IMG/VR virus record: IMGVR_UViG_3300036945_000687
Span: 1-45,474 of that record
Length of the DNA: 45,474 nucleotides
DNA from: a virus
Direction: 5' to 3' (one strand)
Numbering within the stretch: the first letter of the stretch is position 1; each line of letters starts with the position of its first letter. The notes under the pieces were generated by a model that saw nothing but the letters and a program-made list of their open reading frames with translations, did not search any database and was not told the DNA's origin. Shown piece by piece: positions 4,778-34,288 of this stretch. A program made the translations under genes and the position numbers.

Positions 4778-5025
4778 AGGTCGCTTGCCTCCGTAGTGTT
4801 CGGGGTGTTGTCCACCTGATTGTCAGGGCGAGCATTCGGCAGCGGAACGCCTTCAGCCTTGACGCGTGGCGGGGTCATTTCGGCGGGCTTCGGGTCTAGG
4901 TCTTTCCGGCACACCATCGCGCCGGTCCATTCCTTGACCAGATCACGCAGGCGGAATTTGAAACCACACCGATCACAAATCGAGTAGACGCCGCCGGGAA
5001 TGTAGGAACTGCTACCTTCAACCAT
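4774..5025 (-). CDS. Small zinc-ribbon virion-operon protein
   Basis: 83 residues from the ATG at 5025, which has a good AGAGG ribosome site 8-9 bases upstream; an in-frame start further up has none and would run into the capsid region. The N-terminal half has C-D-R-C-G-F followed by V-C-R-K-D, three cysteines of a likely zinc ribbon with a fourth ligand not obvious. The C-terminal third is Pro/Asn-rich and probably disordered. Such small CxxC proteins recur beside gp4-like genes in related phages. Function unknown. Confidence 0.6.
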   Translation of the reverse strand: MVEGSSSYIPGGVYSICDRCGFKFRLRDLVKEWTGAMVCRKDLDPKPAEMTPPRVKAEGVPLPNARPDNQVDNTPNTTEASDL

Positions 5026-5087
5026 TGCGCGGACCTCTGAAAAGAAAAGTGCCCATCCTATAAAGGCGATGGGCCTTCCTTGTTTTA

Positions 5088-6002
5088 CTAGGCTCCAGCA
5101 CTTCCAAAGCAGCCGCGCCAATCGGCCCAGCCCGTAGCGAAACGCTCGGTTGCCTTGGCCTTGGCGTTCTCGGTGTCGAAGTCGTTATCCTTGGTGAATT
5201 CCAAGGCGCGACGGTTGAACGACAACAGACCATACGGAATGTCCGTGGTCAGGAACCACGCATCGCTGTCCGTCAGGTACGGGTCAACGATGACCATATC
5301 AACCAAGCCCTTTGCCTTCAGCACGTTCACGTTGTTCGTGTTCGTGGTGTCGGTCTTGGCACCAGACTGAAGTTCGCTGTCCAGAATGCGCGAGGCATTG
5401 AACATTTCAGACGGGTGGATGATCAAGGCCTTGGGCATTGCACCAAGGATATGACCACGGGCGTTCTTCATGGTGCTGATTGCCGTCACGGCGCTTTCAA
5501 GGGCGCTTTCAGACAGATCGGCAGCAGTCAGAAGGTTCGATTGGTTGCCCGACAAGGTGGGATGCGCAGCAGAGAACAGCGCAACACCATCGCCGCCGAC
5601 ATACGAACCCGAAAAGCCACGGTTCAGCACATTGGCGTGAACGATGCACTTGGTCGTATTCATCGAACGGGCCAGTTCAGCCGAACGACGCTCCGAGATG
5701 GTCTTATACTGACCGTCTTCGATAGCTTCGCGCGTGACAATGTAGCCCAGACCATAAACCACGTTGGTGAAACGCGACTTGTAGCCTTCGCCGTCATTGT
5801 CGTACTGGATCGACGCGCCTTCAGGCTTCGGAGCAGCAAGACCAAAGCCAGTAGCTTCGGCAATTTCCTCGTACGCCTTGTCAGACGTTTCCATCTGGAA
5901 ATACGCTTCGTATGGCTTGCCATATTCGTCGTACTTATTGCCGAACCATGCCTTTACGCCGGGCCAAAGGTTCGACGGGTGGTTTGAACGAGTAATAGTC
6001 AT
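5088..6002 (-). CDS. Major capsid protein (HK97-type fold, probable)
   Basis: 304 residues, starting T-I-T-R-S-N-H-P-S-N-L-W-P-G-V. It has an E-loop-like acidic/aromatic N-terminal part, a segment V-T-R-E-A-I-E-D-G-Q-Y, then H-P-T-L-S-G-N and a late V-D-P-Y-L-T-D-S-D-A-W-F-L, all usual in Mu/podovirus-type major head proteins. It follows scaffold and the small head protein. Family is assigned from order, length and motif pattern. Confidence 0.82.
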   Translation of the reverse strand: MTITRSNHPSNLWPGVKAWFGNKYDEYGKPYEAYFQMETSDKAYEEIAEATGFGLAAPKPEGASIQYDNDGEGYKSRFTNVVYGLGYIVTREAIEDGQYKTISERRSAELARSMNTTKCIVHANVLNRGFSGSYVGGDGVALFSAAHPTLSGNQSNLLTAADLSESALESAVTAISTMKNARGHILGAMPKALIIHPSEMFNASRILDSELQSGAKTDTTNTNNVNVLKAKGLVDMVIVDPYLTDSDAWFLTTDIPYGLLSFNRRALEFTKDNDFDTENAKAKATERFATGWADWRGCFGSAGA

Positions 6003-6014
6003 GTTCCGTCCTCC

Positions 6015-6599
6015 TTAGACGCCAGTGGTGCCAGCAGCGGGGGTTTCAGTGGCTTCGACAATCGAGACGAGCCATACAGGGCCGGTGCCGCCGATGGTGT
6101 TGCCGATGGTCTGGTCAAACGCGACAATGCGCATCTGTGCCGAAGTGGTGGCCTTGGTGGAGCTGTCCAGCATATAGCCCGACTGCTTCGTGTAGACGCT
6201 GCCCGAACCAGCCACGAGATCAGCGTTGTTGCCGATGTCCGTGGTTGCCAGAGCGCCACCAACTGCGTCTTCTTCGATGGCAAACAGAAGGTTGTAATCA
6301 TCCGCAACAAGCAGATAATCAGCTTCCGAAGCCGCACGATAGCCGCGATTGATTGCCGTGGTGGAACCGGCTGCAACGCCGTCCTTGGGAGCAAAGCCCA
6401 CAACAACGCCCGTTATATTGGCACCAGCAGCGGCACGCGCAGCACCAGGAACGCCAGCAGCGTCACCCGTGCCAGAGATAATGACCGGATCACCAACAAA
6501 GATGTTGTTCGTTTCTCCGGCAGCGACAGAATACAGATTGCAAGCGCCGTTGTACGGTGCCCCGCTCTTGTATCGAATTGGTTTCAGACCAAAAGCCAT
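6015..6599 (-). CDS. Head-associated (decoration/stabilisation-like) protein
   Basis: 194 residues starting F-G-L-K-P-I-R-Y, then a Gly/Ala/Thr-rich beta protein. The pattern Y-N-G-A-C-N-L-Y followed by F-V-G-D-P-V is typical of small capsid-associated proteins that precede the major capsid gene in podoviruses. It lies 12 bases upstream of the capsid start and one base from the gene before it, so it is co-translated with head genes. No transmembrane part. Decoration is inferred; a minor structural role is the alternative. Confidence 0.6.
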   Translation of the reverse strand: MAFGLKPIRYKSGAPYNGACNLYSVAAGETNNIFVGDPVIISGTGDAAGVPGAARAAAGANITGVVVGFAPKDGVAAGSTTAINRGYRAASEADYLLVADDYNLLFAIEEDAVGGALATTDIGNNADLVAGSGSVYTKQSGYMLDSSTKATTSAQMRIVAFDQTIGNTIGGTGPVWLVSIVEATETPAAGTTGV

Positions 6600-18491: not shown

Positions 18492-18508
18492 ATTACGATG
18501 TCCGTTAT
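18492..18508. promoter_or_regulatory. Operator-like site O2 (half conserved)
   Basis: The left half ATTACGAT matches the operator; the right half is diverged (CGTTAT). It is 26 bases from the next site, centre to centre. Overlaps the region where the CI gene could begin at 18498. Confidence 0.45.
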
Positions 18509-18517
18509 CGACGGCGC

Positions 18518-18534
18518 ATTACGATTTTCGCATG
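18518..18534. promoter_or_regulatory. Operator-like site O3
   Basis: ATTACGATTTTCGCATG keeps the left half and part of the right half of the palindrome. It lies just upstream of the likely CI start (18543), fitting autoregulation of the repressor. Confidence 0.55.
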
Positions 18535-18542
18535 GTGTGCCA

Positions 18543-19136
18543 ATGGTCACACATGACGAAATCATCGCAGAACTGGTGCGCCAGCTTGATGCCAAAAAGG
18601 TAACTGGGCGCGGGATAGCCTCGCTGTTAAAGATTGCACCGGCGCGCGTCACCGAAATGCGGAAGGGTGAACGTCGAGTGCAGCCTCACGAAATGTCAGT
18701 GCTTGCCCAATTTTTCGGCATGGGTGAAATTGATACTGGCCCAGACACCAATGTCATTTGGGTGCCTGTCATTGGCATAGCGGCGGCGGGCTGCTGGAAA
18801 GAGGCTATCGAACTGCCGTCCTTCTTGGTGCCAAGAATTAGAAAGGCTGGATGCAACCAGGCATTTGCCGTTCAGATCGACGGCGATAGTATGGATAAAC
18901 TACTGCCAGACGGCGGCTATGCAGTGATTGACCCCGATCAAAAGCAGTTGAACGATAAACGCATCTACTTGATCCAGAACGGCGGCGGCGAGACAACTAT
19001 CAAACGCTACCGCACCGAGCCTTCACGCTTTGAGCCGGTTTCCAACAACCCCTCACACAAGATCATCCATATGGGAGAGCACGAAATAATCGTGCTGGGG
19101 CGCGTCGTTTCCTATACCAGCGATGTAGGTTTGTGA
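18543..19136 (+). CDS. CI/LexA-type phage repressor (S24 peptidase)
   Basis: 197 residues from ATG 18543. The N-terminal HTH is followed by V-I-G-I-A-A-A-G-C-W with the Ala82-Gly83 bond as likely self-cleavage site. The S24 catalytic pair is S116 (D-G-D-S-M-D) and K154 (T-I-K-R-Y-R). This should bind the operators in the lysogen and be inactivated through RecA after DNA damage. An in-frame ATG at 18498 gives 15 more residues, but it lies in operator O2; neither start has a strong ribosome site. Confidence 0.9.
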   Translation: MVTHDEIIAELVRQLDAKKVTGRGIASLLKIAPARVTEMRKGERRVQPHEMSVLAQFFGMGEIDTGPDTNVIWVPVIGIAAAGCWKEAIELPSFLVPRIRKAGCNQAFAVQIDGDSMDKLLPDGGYAVIDPDQKQLNDKRIYLIQNGGGETTIKRYRTEPSRFEPVSNNPSHKIIHMGEHEIIVLGRVVSYTSDVGL

Positions 19137-27168: not shown

Positions 27169-27452
27169 GCGATTGGCAGGCAGGTGACTTGGCATTGTGT
27201 GTGAACGATGGCGTTCTGCATTGTGGCCACGGCAAACACGACGCATCACGTAGCGTAAAAAGCGGCGCAGTCATTCGAGTGGACGCAATCGGCAAGGCAT
27301 CAGTTTTGGCAGGATATGGCGACTGCGATTGTGATGTGCTGATTTTTGGCAGCGGACAGGGATTGTCTATGCGCTTCGTCAAAATCACCCCCGGCCACAA
27401 GATCACCGGCTCCGAGGTTGACCAGAAACAGCCGTGGAAGGTGGGGGTATGA
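27165..27452 (+). CDS. Hypothetical early protein, Cys/Gly-rich
   Basis: 95 residues, beta-rich: W-Q-A-G-D-L-A-L-C-V-N-D-G-V then S-G-A-V-I-R-V-D-A-I-G-K-A-S-V-L and G-L-S-M-R-F-V-K-I-T-P. Resembles small SH3-like beta barrels. Overlap ATGA with the genes on both sides. No known name. Confidence 0.5.
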   Translation: MSDWQAGDLALCVNDGVLHCGHGKHDASRSVKSGAVIRVDAIGKASVLAGYGDCDCDVLIFGSGQGLSMRFVKITPGHKITGSEVDQKQPWKVGV

Positions 27453-27766
27453 CTGCGGAACGCGCGAAGGTGGACATGCTCACCGCAGACGAAGCCGCCG
27501 AACTGCTAGGCATCAGCGAACGCACATTGCGGAAGCTACGCCAGCGCGGGGAAATCCGCTATATTGCCATCAGCGACCGGATCATCCGGTACTTTGCAGA
27601 AGACTGCGAAGCCTTTCTACAAGCCAAACGCCGGACAGATACACCATGCCAACGCCCATCAAAGACAAACGTTCGCCTAACTGGCAGTATGACTTCCAAA
27701 GGGGCGGGCGGCGGTTTTATGGCTCGACGGGAACGGCTAATAAGCGATCGGCGCAACGCTACATAG
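27449..27766 (+). CDS. Excisionase-type helix-turn-helix protein
   Basis: 105 residues from ATG 27449. Residues 7-60 hold an HTH_17 pattern: M-L-T-A-D-E-A-A-E-L-L-G-I-S-E-R-T-L-R-K and then Q-R-G-E-I-R-Y-I-A with I-R-Y-F-A-E-D. This fold is shared by excisionases and other DNA-bending proteins, and the position directly before integrase supports an excisionase role. Its last 40 residues overlap the integrase start by 121 bases in another frame. Confidence 0.68.
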   Translation: MTAERAKVDMLTADEAAELLGISERTLRKLRQRGEIRYIAISDRIIRYFAEDCEAFLQAKRRTDTPCQRPSKTNVRLTGSMTSKGAGGGFMARRERLISDRRNAT

Positions 27767-28752
27767 ACAATCTGGTCAATGAGATTGCCGAAGGCCGGAA
27801 TGGCAAAACACATATCAGCCTGAATTTAGCCTGCGATGCACTATGGCAGGACAAGGCGCAGTTTGACCGATCGTGCAGGACGACGGAATACCAGCTTGCG
27901 AACCTGATCGAAGGCCTTGGCGCAAATAAGGCGCTGGCAGATTTAACGATCGCAGACTTTAACCACTACATCGCCAAGCGCCGCGCAAAGGTGAGCAACA
28001 CCAGCGTCAACCGTGAACTGGAATTGGCCCGCCGCGTTTGGAAACATGCCGCCCGCAGCCACATGGTTAGCCCGATCGAATGGGGCGCGCTAATGCTAAA
28101 AGAGCCAGAGGAGCGCGTGCGGGAACTATCCGCCAAAGAGGAGGAGCGCCTTTTCGCCACACTTCCCGAATACCTGAAGCCGGTCGTTGAATTTGCCATC
28201 CTGTCTGGCCAGCGCCGATCGGCAATTGTCAGTTTGCGTTGGGATAAGATCGACTGGAACAACGGCGAGGCGGAAATCGTCAACAAAGGCGGCGGGTTCC
28301 ACAAATTCCCGCTATCGCCGGTCATGGTGCAAATCATCCTGGAGCAACCCAAACTGGACCATTGCCCGTTTGTATTCACCTACGTTTGCGATCGATCGGC
28401 ACCAAAGCGCGCTGATAGGCCGCACAGGGTCAAGGGAGAGCGTTACCCATTCACGCCGCAAGGATGGAAGCGCAAATGGGTAAAGGCGCTGAAAGACGCT
28501 GGAATCGCAGATTTCCGCTTCCATGACTTACGCCACACCAGCGCCACACGGATCATTCGCGCATCAGGCAATCTGAAGGCCGCGCAAAAGCTGCTTGGCC
28601 ACACTGATATTCGGACAACCGCCCGATATGCGCACGTTGGCATGGATGACCTACGCGAATTGATGAGTGACACGGAGTCACGGAATAGCACCGGAAAGCG
28701 TTTGACGGATAAGCCGAAAACAGGCAATATCCCTAGCGTTACAGAGGAGTGA
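27646..28752 (+). CDS. int: Tyrosine-type integrase
   Basis: 368 residues from ATG 27646. Catalytic residues are visible: R190 in L-S-G-Q-R-R-S, H293-x-x-R296 in H-D-L-R-H, H319 in L-L-G-H-T and Y328 in A-R-Y-A-H-V. An N-terminal arm-binding and core-binding part precedes them. It would catalyse integration at tRNA-Pro(UGG), whose 3' half lies 8 bases after its stop. The long overlap with the HTH gene suggests coupled synthesis. Confidence 0.92.
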   Translation: MPTPIKDKRSPNWQYDFQRGGRRFYGSTGTANKRSAQRYIDNLVNEIAEGRNGKTHISLNLACDALWQDKAQFDRSCRTTEYQLANLIEGLGANKALADLTIADFNHYIAKRRAKVSNTSVNRELELARRVWKHAARSHMVSPIEWGALMLKEPEERVRELSAKEEERLFATLPEYLKPVVEFAILSGQRRSAIVSLRWDKIDWNNGEAEIVNKGGGFHKFPLSPVMVQIILEQPKLDHCPFVFTYVCDRSAPKRADRPHRVKGERYPFTPQGWKRKWVKALKDAGIADFRFHDLRHTSATRIIRASGNLKAAQKLLGHTDIRTTARYAHVGMDDLRELMSDTESRNSTGKRLTDKPKTGNIPSVTEE

Positions 28753-28756
28753 GAAC

Positions 28757-29410
28757 ATGCTTTGGGACCAGAGGGTCGTAGGTTCGAATCCTATCTCCCC
28801 GACCACTTATCCAACAGTTTCAAGCACTTCCGAAGCGCCGGACGCGGAACGGAAGGGAAACGCACGGAAACGCGCAACCGTTATCGGGCGCAACAGCACC
28901 GGAATAATCACGGACGCCGCTGCTCAATTGGAAGCAGCGTGCGCCGCTGAGACTTTCGAAGATGAAAACGACTGGCTTGCTTGGCCGGAAAAAGGATGGG
29001 GCACGCCGTTCTTTTGCCCCGTGCGATGGCTTGCCTATACCGAGCGGTTCAGCGTCGATCTGAACACGCCCGCCCCTGCGCTGCCATCCTACTTTCCCGA
29101 TCCTATCCCATCCGATCGGTGGGCGCGTCGGTGTGAATCGGGTCTGGCTGATTACACATACTTCGCAAAGAACAAGCTGGACGGCACAATCAAGATAGGC
29201 CGGTCAAAGCAGCCATCTTATCGAATCAGCACGCTCCACAATGACGCGCGCGGGATGCCTGCTTCTAAATTGGCGATCGTGCCGAATGGTGAACTTGAGC
29301 GCGCTTATCATCGCTTGTTCGCCCGTTGGCGCGTCGAAGGTGAATGGTTCGCGCCCCATCCCGAAATTCTCGCAGAAGTCGAGCGCATCAAATCGGAGTA
29401 CCCGCAATGA
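28757..29410 (+). CDS. GIY-YIG/T5orf172-like nuclease, start spans attP
   Basis: 217 residues. The C-terminal half has Y-T-Y-F-A-K-N-K-L-D-G-T-I-K-I-G-R-S then R-I-S-T-L-H-N-D-A-R-G and E-G-E-W-F, as in GIY-YIG-like T5orf172/MUG113 domains. The ATG at 28757 follows an AGGAG site inside the integrase stop region, but its first 16 codons are the tRNA-Pro-derived core. On integration at the core, the start would be separated from the rest. No internal ATG precedes the domain; a TTG or GTG start is possible. Confidence 0.65.
   Translation: MLWDQRVVGSNPISPTTYPTVSSTSEAPDAERKGNARKRATVIGRNSTGIITDAAAQLEAACAAETFEDENDWLAWPEKGWGTPFFCPVRWLAYTERFSVDLNTPAPALPSYFPDPIPSDRWARRCESGLADYTYFAKNKLDGTIKIGRSKQPSYRISTLHNDARGMPASKLAIVPNGELERAYHRLFARWRVEGEWFAPHPEILAEVERIKSEYPQ
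28761..28805 (+). other. attP core: 3' half of tRNA-Pro(UGG)
   Basis: From the anticodon loop TTTGGGA (28761-28767) through the T-arm GGTTCGAATCC to the acceptor end CCCCGACCA the sequence matches a bacterial tRNA-Pro 3' half, with encoded CCA. The C1-G72 type acceptor and G37 are tRNA-Pro marks. The 5' side of the anticodon stem is missing, so it is not a tRNA gene but an integration core restoring the host gene. Confidence 0.85.
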
Positions 29411-34212: not shown

Positions 34213-34288
34213 GCCGTTGTAGCTCAGATGGTAGAGCGCCTGCCTTGTAAGCAGGATGTCCGGGGTTCGATTCCTCGTTGCGGCTCCA
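34213..34288 (+). tRNA. tRNA-Thr (anticodon TGT)
   Basis: 76 bases with D-arm, anticodon stem CCTGC/GCAGG (34239-34243, 34251-34255), loop CTTGTAA with anticodon TGT at 34246-34248, T-arm with TTCGATT, and encoded CCA. The acceptor stem has one T-T opposition and two G-U pairs. It decodes ACA. Phage tRNAs often help late gene translation; here it sits between the converging operons. Confidence 0.9.

Follow-up and report, generated by a model that had tools for sequence, protein, structure and literature searches.

When the first codons of a phage gene are also the attachment site of the phage, where does translation of that gene begin, and what does integration leave of it? The question is raised by the virus record IMGVR_UViG_3300036945_000687, in which a tyrosine integrase gene, a tRNA-derived attP core and a GIY-YIG-like gene follow one another on the same strand. 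We analyzed the whole stretch of 45,474 bases, here called the window.

The phage and its attachment site

Terminase and portal genes are located at 8.6 to 12.1 kb, left of the attachment site, and a DNA-ejection protein is encoded at the right end of the window (44.7 to 45.5 kb). A search of all 45,474 bases for a second copy of the 45-bp core revealed none. With phage genes on both flanks and a single core copy, the site is the attP of a free phage and no prophage end, and the record is free DNA of a temperate sphingomonad phage. The window also carries a tRNA-Thr(TGT) gene at 34213 to 34288. Searches of annotated phages yielded neither a close relative of the integrase-attP-nuclease locus nor a near-identical phage lacking the nuclease gene, and the GIY-YIG matches examined there did not adjoin an attP in the order integrase, attP, GIY-YIG. 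The locus comprises the following features.

27434..27766, plus strand: small DNA-binding protein (Pfam HTH_17, E 1.6e-11), overlapping the integrase start
27646..28752, plus strand: tyrosine integrase of 368 amino acids (PF00589, E 2.1e-26), stop codon TGA at 28750-28752
28680..28695, plus strand: putative P-arm arm-type site ACGGAATAGCACCGGA, within the integrase 3' end, at the same place in relatives
28745..28749, plus strand: Shine-Dalgarno sequence AGGAG, overlapping the integrase end
28757..28759, plus strand: ATG start codon, 1 nt left of the core
28757..29410, plus strand: open reading frame (ORF) spanning attP, 217 amino acids, nuclease domain C-terminal
28761..28805, plus strand: attP core, 45 bp, corresponding to the tRNA-Pro(TGG) 3' part (anticodon loop through CCA)
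28899..28914, plus strand: putative P'-arm arm-type site CCGGAATAATCACGGA, lying in ORF codons 48-53; counterparts occur throughout the integrase family
28928..28930, plus strand: TTG, weak alternative start and first start codon past the core (duplex -3.2 kcal/mol)
29021..29023, plus strand: GTG, weak alternative start (duplex -0.2 kcal/mol)
29153..29380, plus strand: GIY-YIG (MUG113/T5orf172) domain by Pfam profiles, amino acids 133-208

The 45-bp core was found unchanged in the tRNA-Pro(TGG) gene of 8 of the 396 sampled Sphingomonadales genomes, and ARAGORN called the matching host gene tRNA-Pro(tgg). Recombination of the phage in the anticodon loop of tRNA-Pro(TGG) is the best explanation. 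Phage and host already differ at the base adjoining the core on its left; the ATG at 28757 therefore lies outside the core, is phage specific and is absent from attB. Alignment of the attPs of related integrases exposed an arm motif, CCGGAATARTCMCGGA, which in these relatives lies inside the integrase 3' end and again about 130 to 176 nt past the integrase stop. In the 45-kb window it has two matches, versus none in 100 shuffles, and their position and symmetry about the core suggest that 28680-28695 and 28899-28914 are integrase arm-type sites. With the P' arm at 28899-28914, the first ~53 codons of the ORF, and not 16 as proposed in a first-pass annotation, would be attP DNA; its placement of an in-frame tRNA-Pro core in the first codons held. 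The motif offers a means of locating the attP of this integrase family from sequence.

A host-tRNA-identical core, flanking candidate arm-type sites and an adjoining tyrosine integrase are the features of a tRNA-targeting tyrosine integrase module. Relatives of the integrase are 59 to 67% identical. A comparable small HTH gene occupies this position in relatives; the HTH_17 protein encoded at 27434..27766 is a candidate recombination directionality factor. A 51% relative of this tyrosine integrase is the "telomere resolvase" (4998-6116) of Sphingopyxis phage VSN-002, whose attP core (about 6117-6175) is the reverse complement of a tRNA-Pro 5' half, with the same arm motifs and then an HNH gene. 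In other members of the integrase family (L007, L050-L053, L084, and others), the 5' half of a different tRNA follows the integrase gene, likewise reversed. Differing reversed tRNA halves with the same arm motif indicate that switching between tRNA targets and orientations has occurred.

The nuclease and its possible starts

MUG113 and T5orf172 are GIY-YIG subfamilies, and the matches of the ORF product to both, judged against curated cut-offs, were above threshold (PF13455, 29.3 bits versus 22.3; PF10544, 26.9 bits versus 20). The catalytic-type motif residues YF, KIG, R, E, and GEWF are retained and invariant, and Y135, F136, K146, I147, G148, R156, and E181 are invariant in an 11-protein alignment. 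Profile and motif residues identify the product as a predicted small GIY-YIG nuclease of the MUG113/T5orf172 subfamily, in line with the first-pass reading of the frame. In an AlphaFold2 model, pLDDT was about 40 to 60 for most of residues 1 to 120 and mostly >90 for residues 133 to 217; residues 1 to 130 are predicted to be mostly unstructured, and the attP-encoded leader looks tolerant of any sequence. Minimal relatives have about 20 residues ahead of the domain, so the fold can do without the leader. A structure search gave no PDB match at an E value of ≤0.001 (the GIY-YIG entries 1zg2 and 4xm5 were weak top matches), and a PDB sequence search gave no significant match. Pfam detected no domain besides GIY-YIG in the 217-residue protein, and thus no separate DNA-binding domain, residues 1 to 130 being mostly of low confidence in the model.

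The predicted ribosome binding site upstream of this frame, an AGGAG that overlaps the integrase end and precedes an ATG, was confirmed at 28745-28749 and 28757. Of all 748 ATGs in the window, only 0.9% have a duplex with the 16S tail at least as strong as the one here (-10.8 kcal/mol). The TTG at 28928 and the GTG at 29021 are both in frame with the nuclease, and either would give the whole nuclease domain. From the core to the TTG, the frame is open at a P value of about 0.47 in shuffles, so the open frame alone cannot decide the start; from the core to the nuclease domain, the P value is 0.043. Core, arms, and Shine-Dalgarno/ATG exceed chance; taken by itself, the openness between core and TTG does not. 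Among the attPs of related integrases, in our own grouping, to which L098 and L114 were added, the frame is open through the core in 7 of 12 gene-free and 7 of 10 gene-bearing sites. An open frame across attP was rejected as proof of coding, since gene-free attPs are open just as often. Codon use over codons 17 to 57 was coding-like (0.131 versus a 95% limit of -0.035 for wrong frames), but a dispensable stretch of one relative scores nearly as high and these statistics are only suggestive. Scans for sigma-70 promoters and terminators revealed none above chance. We infer, with good support, that in the circular genome translation begins at the ATG before the core, probably from the integrase transcript.

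If so, production of the nuclease from free DNA only would be a natural consequence. Integration was simulated by joining the 5' half of each of eight host tRNA-Pro genes to the right arm of the phage. The outcome was the one envisaged in the first-pass annotation: one end has integrase, Shine-Dalgarno sequence, and ATG, and the opposite end has the nuclease body, located behind tRNA-Pro. In all eight simulated attL sites, the frame meets a TAG 25 nt before the core, no ATG, GTG, or TTG lies between this TAG and the core, and the next start is the weak TTG at 28928. The other suggestion of that annotation was that the nuclease might be made only from host tRNA read-through. The nuclease would then be a product of the lysogen, its body fused to, or started from, the host tRNA-Pro side; in favor of this, the body is co-oriented behind tRNA-Pro in attL, as also seen in a lysogen described below (L098). 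Because a read-through transcript would have no good start at any of the eight candidate attB sites, this suggestion was rejected for this phage; it is largely refuted in silico and highly improbable.

Related attachment sites and lysogens

Within the same integrase family, an ATG lies past the core, directly before the P' arm, in L033, L036, L098, L113, and L114, and the arm reads M-T-N-x-G-I-V. The cargo is PAPS-reductase-like in L033, HNH in L036, and GIY-YIG in L113, L114, and L098; L036 has both start layouts, before and past the core. The arm ATG is missing in the window (CGC) and in L065 (ACG). L065 shares the layout of the window with a different GIY-YIG protein, the Shine-Dalgarno sequence before its pre-core ATG being moderate versus exceptional in the window. 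In L032 and L114, an ATG overlapping the integrase stop opens a short ORF only. A conserved start past the core, named beforehand as speaking against an integration switch, is accordingly found in five relatives and is absent from the window and from L065. The structural logic of the proposed switch stands, but it is not general, as the cargo gene of most relatives begins past the core.

The slot past the core holds varied cargo among relatives (L033, L036, L043, L098, L114, and L032), including PAPS-reductase-like, HNH, staphylococcal-type-nuclease-like (by reading), GIY-YIG, and DNA C5-methylase genes. Where cargo overlaps the P' arm, it is read in one or the other of the arm's two open frames.

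We also examined 114 distinct GIY-YIG loci, 13 of which lie within 1.2 kb after a same-strand integrase, six of these with a recognizable tRNA core. At two of the six (L234 and L215, with unrelated integrases and other tRNAs), there is no start codon between core and domain, which makes the layout in which integration would sever the gene from its start a recurrent one. The pre-core ATG of L234 is preceded by AAAGG, and a frame both open and free of starts had a P value of 0.0025 in shuffles; that of L215 is preceded by GAGG, with the domain about 12 codons past the core. The integrases of L374 and L234 share 65% identity. Both the tRNA core and the cargo protein of L374 differ from those of L234, but ATGAGCC, the frame, and the spacing of exactly 166 nt between ATG and arm are preserved. 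In L388, from the integrase family of L234, a GIY-YIG gene at the core starts after it, and the cargo of L212 and L260 (other integrase families) does so as well. Judged from these sequences, attP is a repeated location of nucleases, a subset of which appear to be read from before the core. At L220 (651-1140), a piece resembling the N-terminal, arm-binding part of an integrase is seemingly fused in frame to a GIY-YIG domain, beside an integrase.

The search for lysogens, either of this phage or of close relatives that carry this GIY-YIG gene, found none; related integrases were present in 14 of 397 genomes, and a close one only in G001. Sphingobium bisphenolivorans YL23 was uninformative as a candidate lysogen, its contig ending inside the core, and its GIY-YIG gene lies elsewhere, near a repressor-like region. 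L098 and L083 are the two ends of one prophage: at attL (L098), tRNA-Pro is followed by the P' arm and an intact GIY-YIG gene with its own post-core start, and attR (L083) consists of integrase and core. This is the only true lysogen seen with a GIY-YIG gene at attL; it has the nuclease gene behind tRNA-Pro, as sought, but with a start past the core. On its contig, IMGVR_UViG_3300020187_000111 (which also holds L106), attL and attR are just about 11.5 kb apart (about 10.7 to 22.2 kb), and the element may be a satellite, a small island, or a decayed prophage with the same type of integrase.

Alternative readings and known systems

Taken together, we favor, at a probability of roughly 60%, the reading that translation of a cargo nuclease at attP begins at the ATG before the core and that integration separates the gene from this start. 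A GIY-YIG cargo gene sits directly after attP; its translation would have been captured by the Shine-Dalgarno sequence and ATG in the integrase/core junction, and the first ~53 codons, made up of tRNA core and P' arm, would encode an unstructured leader. Integration would leave the strong start with the integrase and might in this way silence the nuclease in the lysogen; a homing-type nuclease could then act on co-infecting DNA while the lysogen is spared. The main competitor, a real contender if clearly the less probable one, is that the nuclease is ordinary cargo starting past the core (TTG 28928 or GTG 29021), that the ATG ahead of the core and the open frame are coincidental, and that integration leaves the gene unaffected, the prophage copy being read from tRNA-Pro transcription. 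The P'-arm starts of the five relatives, the intact GIY-YIG gene behind tRNA-Pro in the only lysogen attL, and the lack of enrichment of open attP frames where genes follow all fit this competitor. Against it, the window has CGC in place of the arm ATG and weak post-core starts versus an exceptional pre-core Shine-Dalgarno sequence, and in L234 and L215 the stretch from core to domain contains no start codon. It is improbable that the Shine-Dalgarno sequence and ATG drive only a short leader or junk peptide, perhaps coupled to the integrase stop, and that the nuclease body is a decaying remnant without useful expression in either state. The short ORFs of L032 and L114 and the predicted disorder of the leader would agree with this, but no break separates the leader from the nuclease domain, which is intact and retains its conserved residues, and a frame open all the way from core to domain would rarely arise by chance (P = 0.043).

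Under the favored reading of a severed start, integration might silence the nuclease, which would possibly be made only during infection or after excision. Activity confined to the circular genome would suit co-infection competition or the spread of cargo between attP regions. It is just as possible that selection played no part and that the severed layout arose in passing when cargo settled at attP; occasional capture of an upstream start by such incoming cargo accounts for the mixed layouts equally well. Tentatively, and with more doubt than belief, attPs with their own start and leader frame could have evolved repeatedly to carry exchangeable cargo, often GIY-YIG, expressed only in non-integrated DNA, with a switch by start-codon removal in at least three integrase lineages and tRNA targets. 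If translation does start before the core, integration would be an off-switch through start-codon loss that requires no regulator. This would explain how self-endangering phage nucleases are carried without harm to the lysogen, and prophage annotation would be predicted to miss or mis-start such genes systematically. In the open-licence literature searched, we found no precedent for removal of the start codon of a nuclease by integration.

The closest parallel is provided by mycobacteriophage BPs and its relatives, in which attP lies inside the repressor gene and immunity depends on integration (PMC4557955). As in BPs, attP here lies within an ORF that adjoins the integrase gene, and the protein product would be altered by integration, in our case with the coding sequence altered in silico. 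The split gene is, however, not the immunity repressor, a CI-like repressor being encoded at 18498-19136, away from attP. In BPs, integration truncates the C terminus of the repressor and changes its stability by stabilizing the protein, whereas here the nuclease would lose its start codon; the function in BPs is proven, whereas that in this phage is inferred from sequence. In Myxococcus phage Mx8 (PMC6070905) and the archaeal suicidal SSV-type integrases (PMC8371274), attP lies inside the integrase gene. There, too, the gene that contains attP is rewritten or split by integration, but it is the integrase itself that is split, in its 3' part (Mx8) or internally, while in this phage the integrase would remain intact and the gene behind it would be deprived of its start. 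In both BPs and Mx8 it is the C-terminal end that changes, unlike the loss of a start predicted here.

T5orf172/GIY-YIG genes are regarded as free-standing homing endonuclease genes of lytic phages (PMC10448857). The gene studied here resembles them in its domain, its variable presence, and its position at a phage recombination boundary. The genes described there lie near essential genes, e.g., terminase and nrd, and are not placed at attP, whereas this gene overlaps attP and, unlike them, has no recognized DNA-binding domain and no known target. Lacking a separate DNA-binding domain, and with no placement at attP in that work, it is linked to homing by a lead and not by membership. The attachment site itself resembles those of tRNA-targeting tyrosine integrases with anticodon-loop cores, e.g., that of Boilgate (PMC10865867), in its core of 43 to 45 bp, taken from the tRNA 3' half from the anticodon region, in the rebuilding of the tRNA at attL, and in the arms around the core. 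It differs from them in that attP here would double as coding sequence of the downstream gene.
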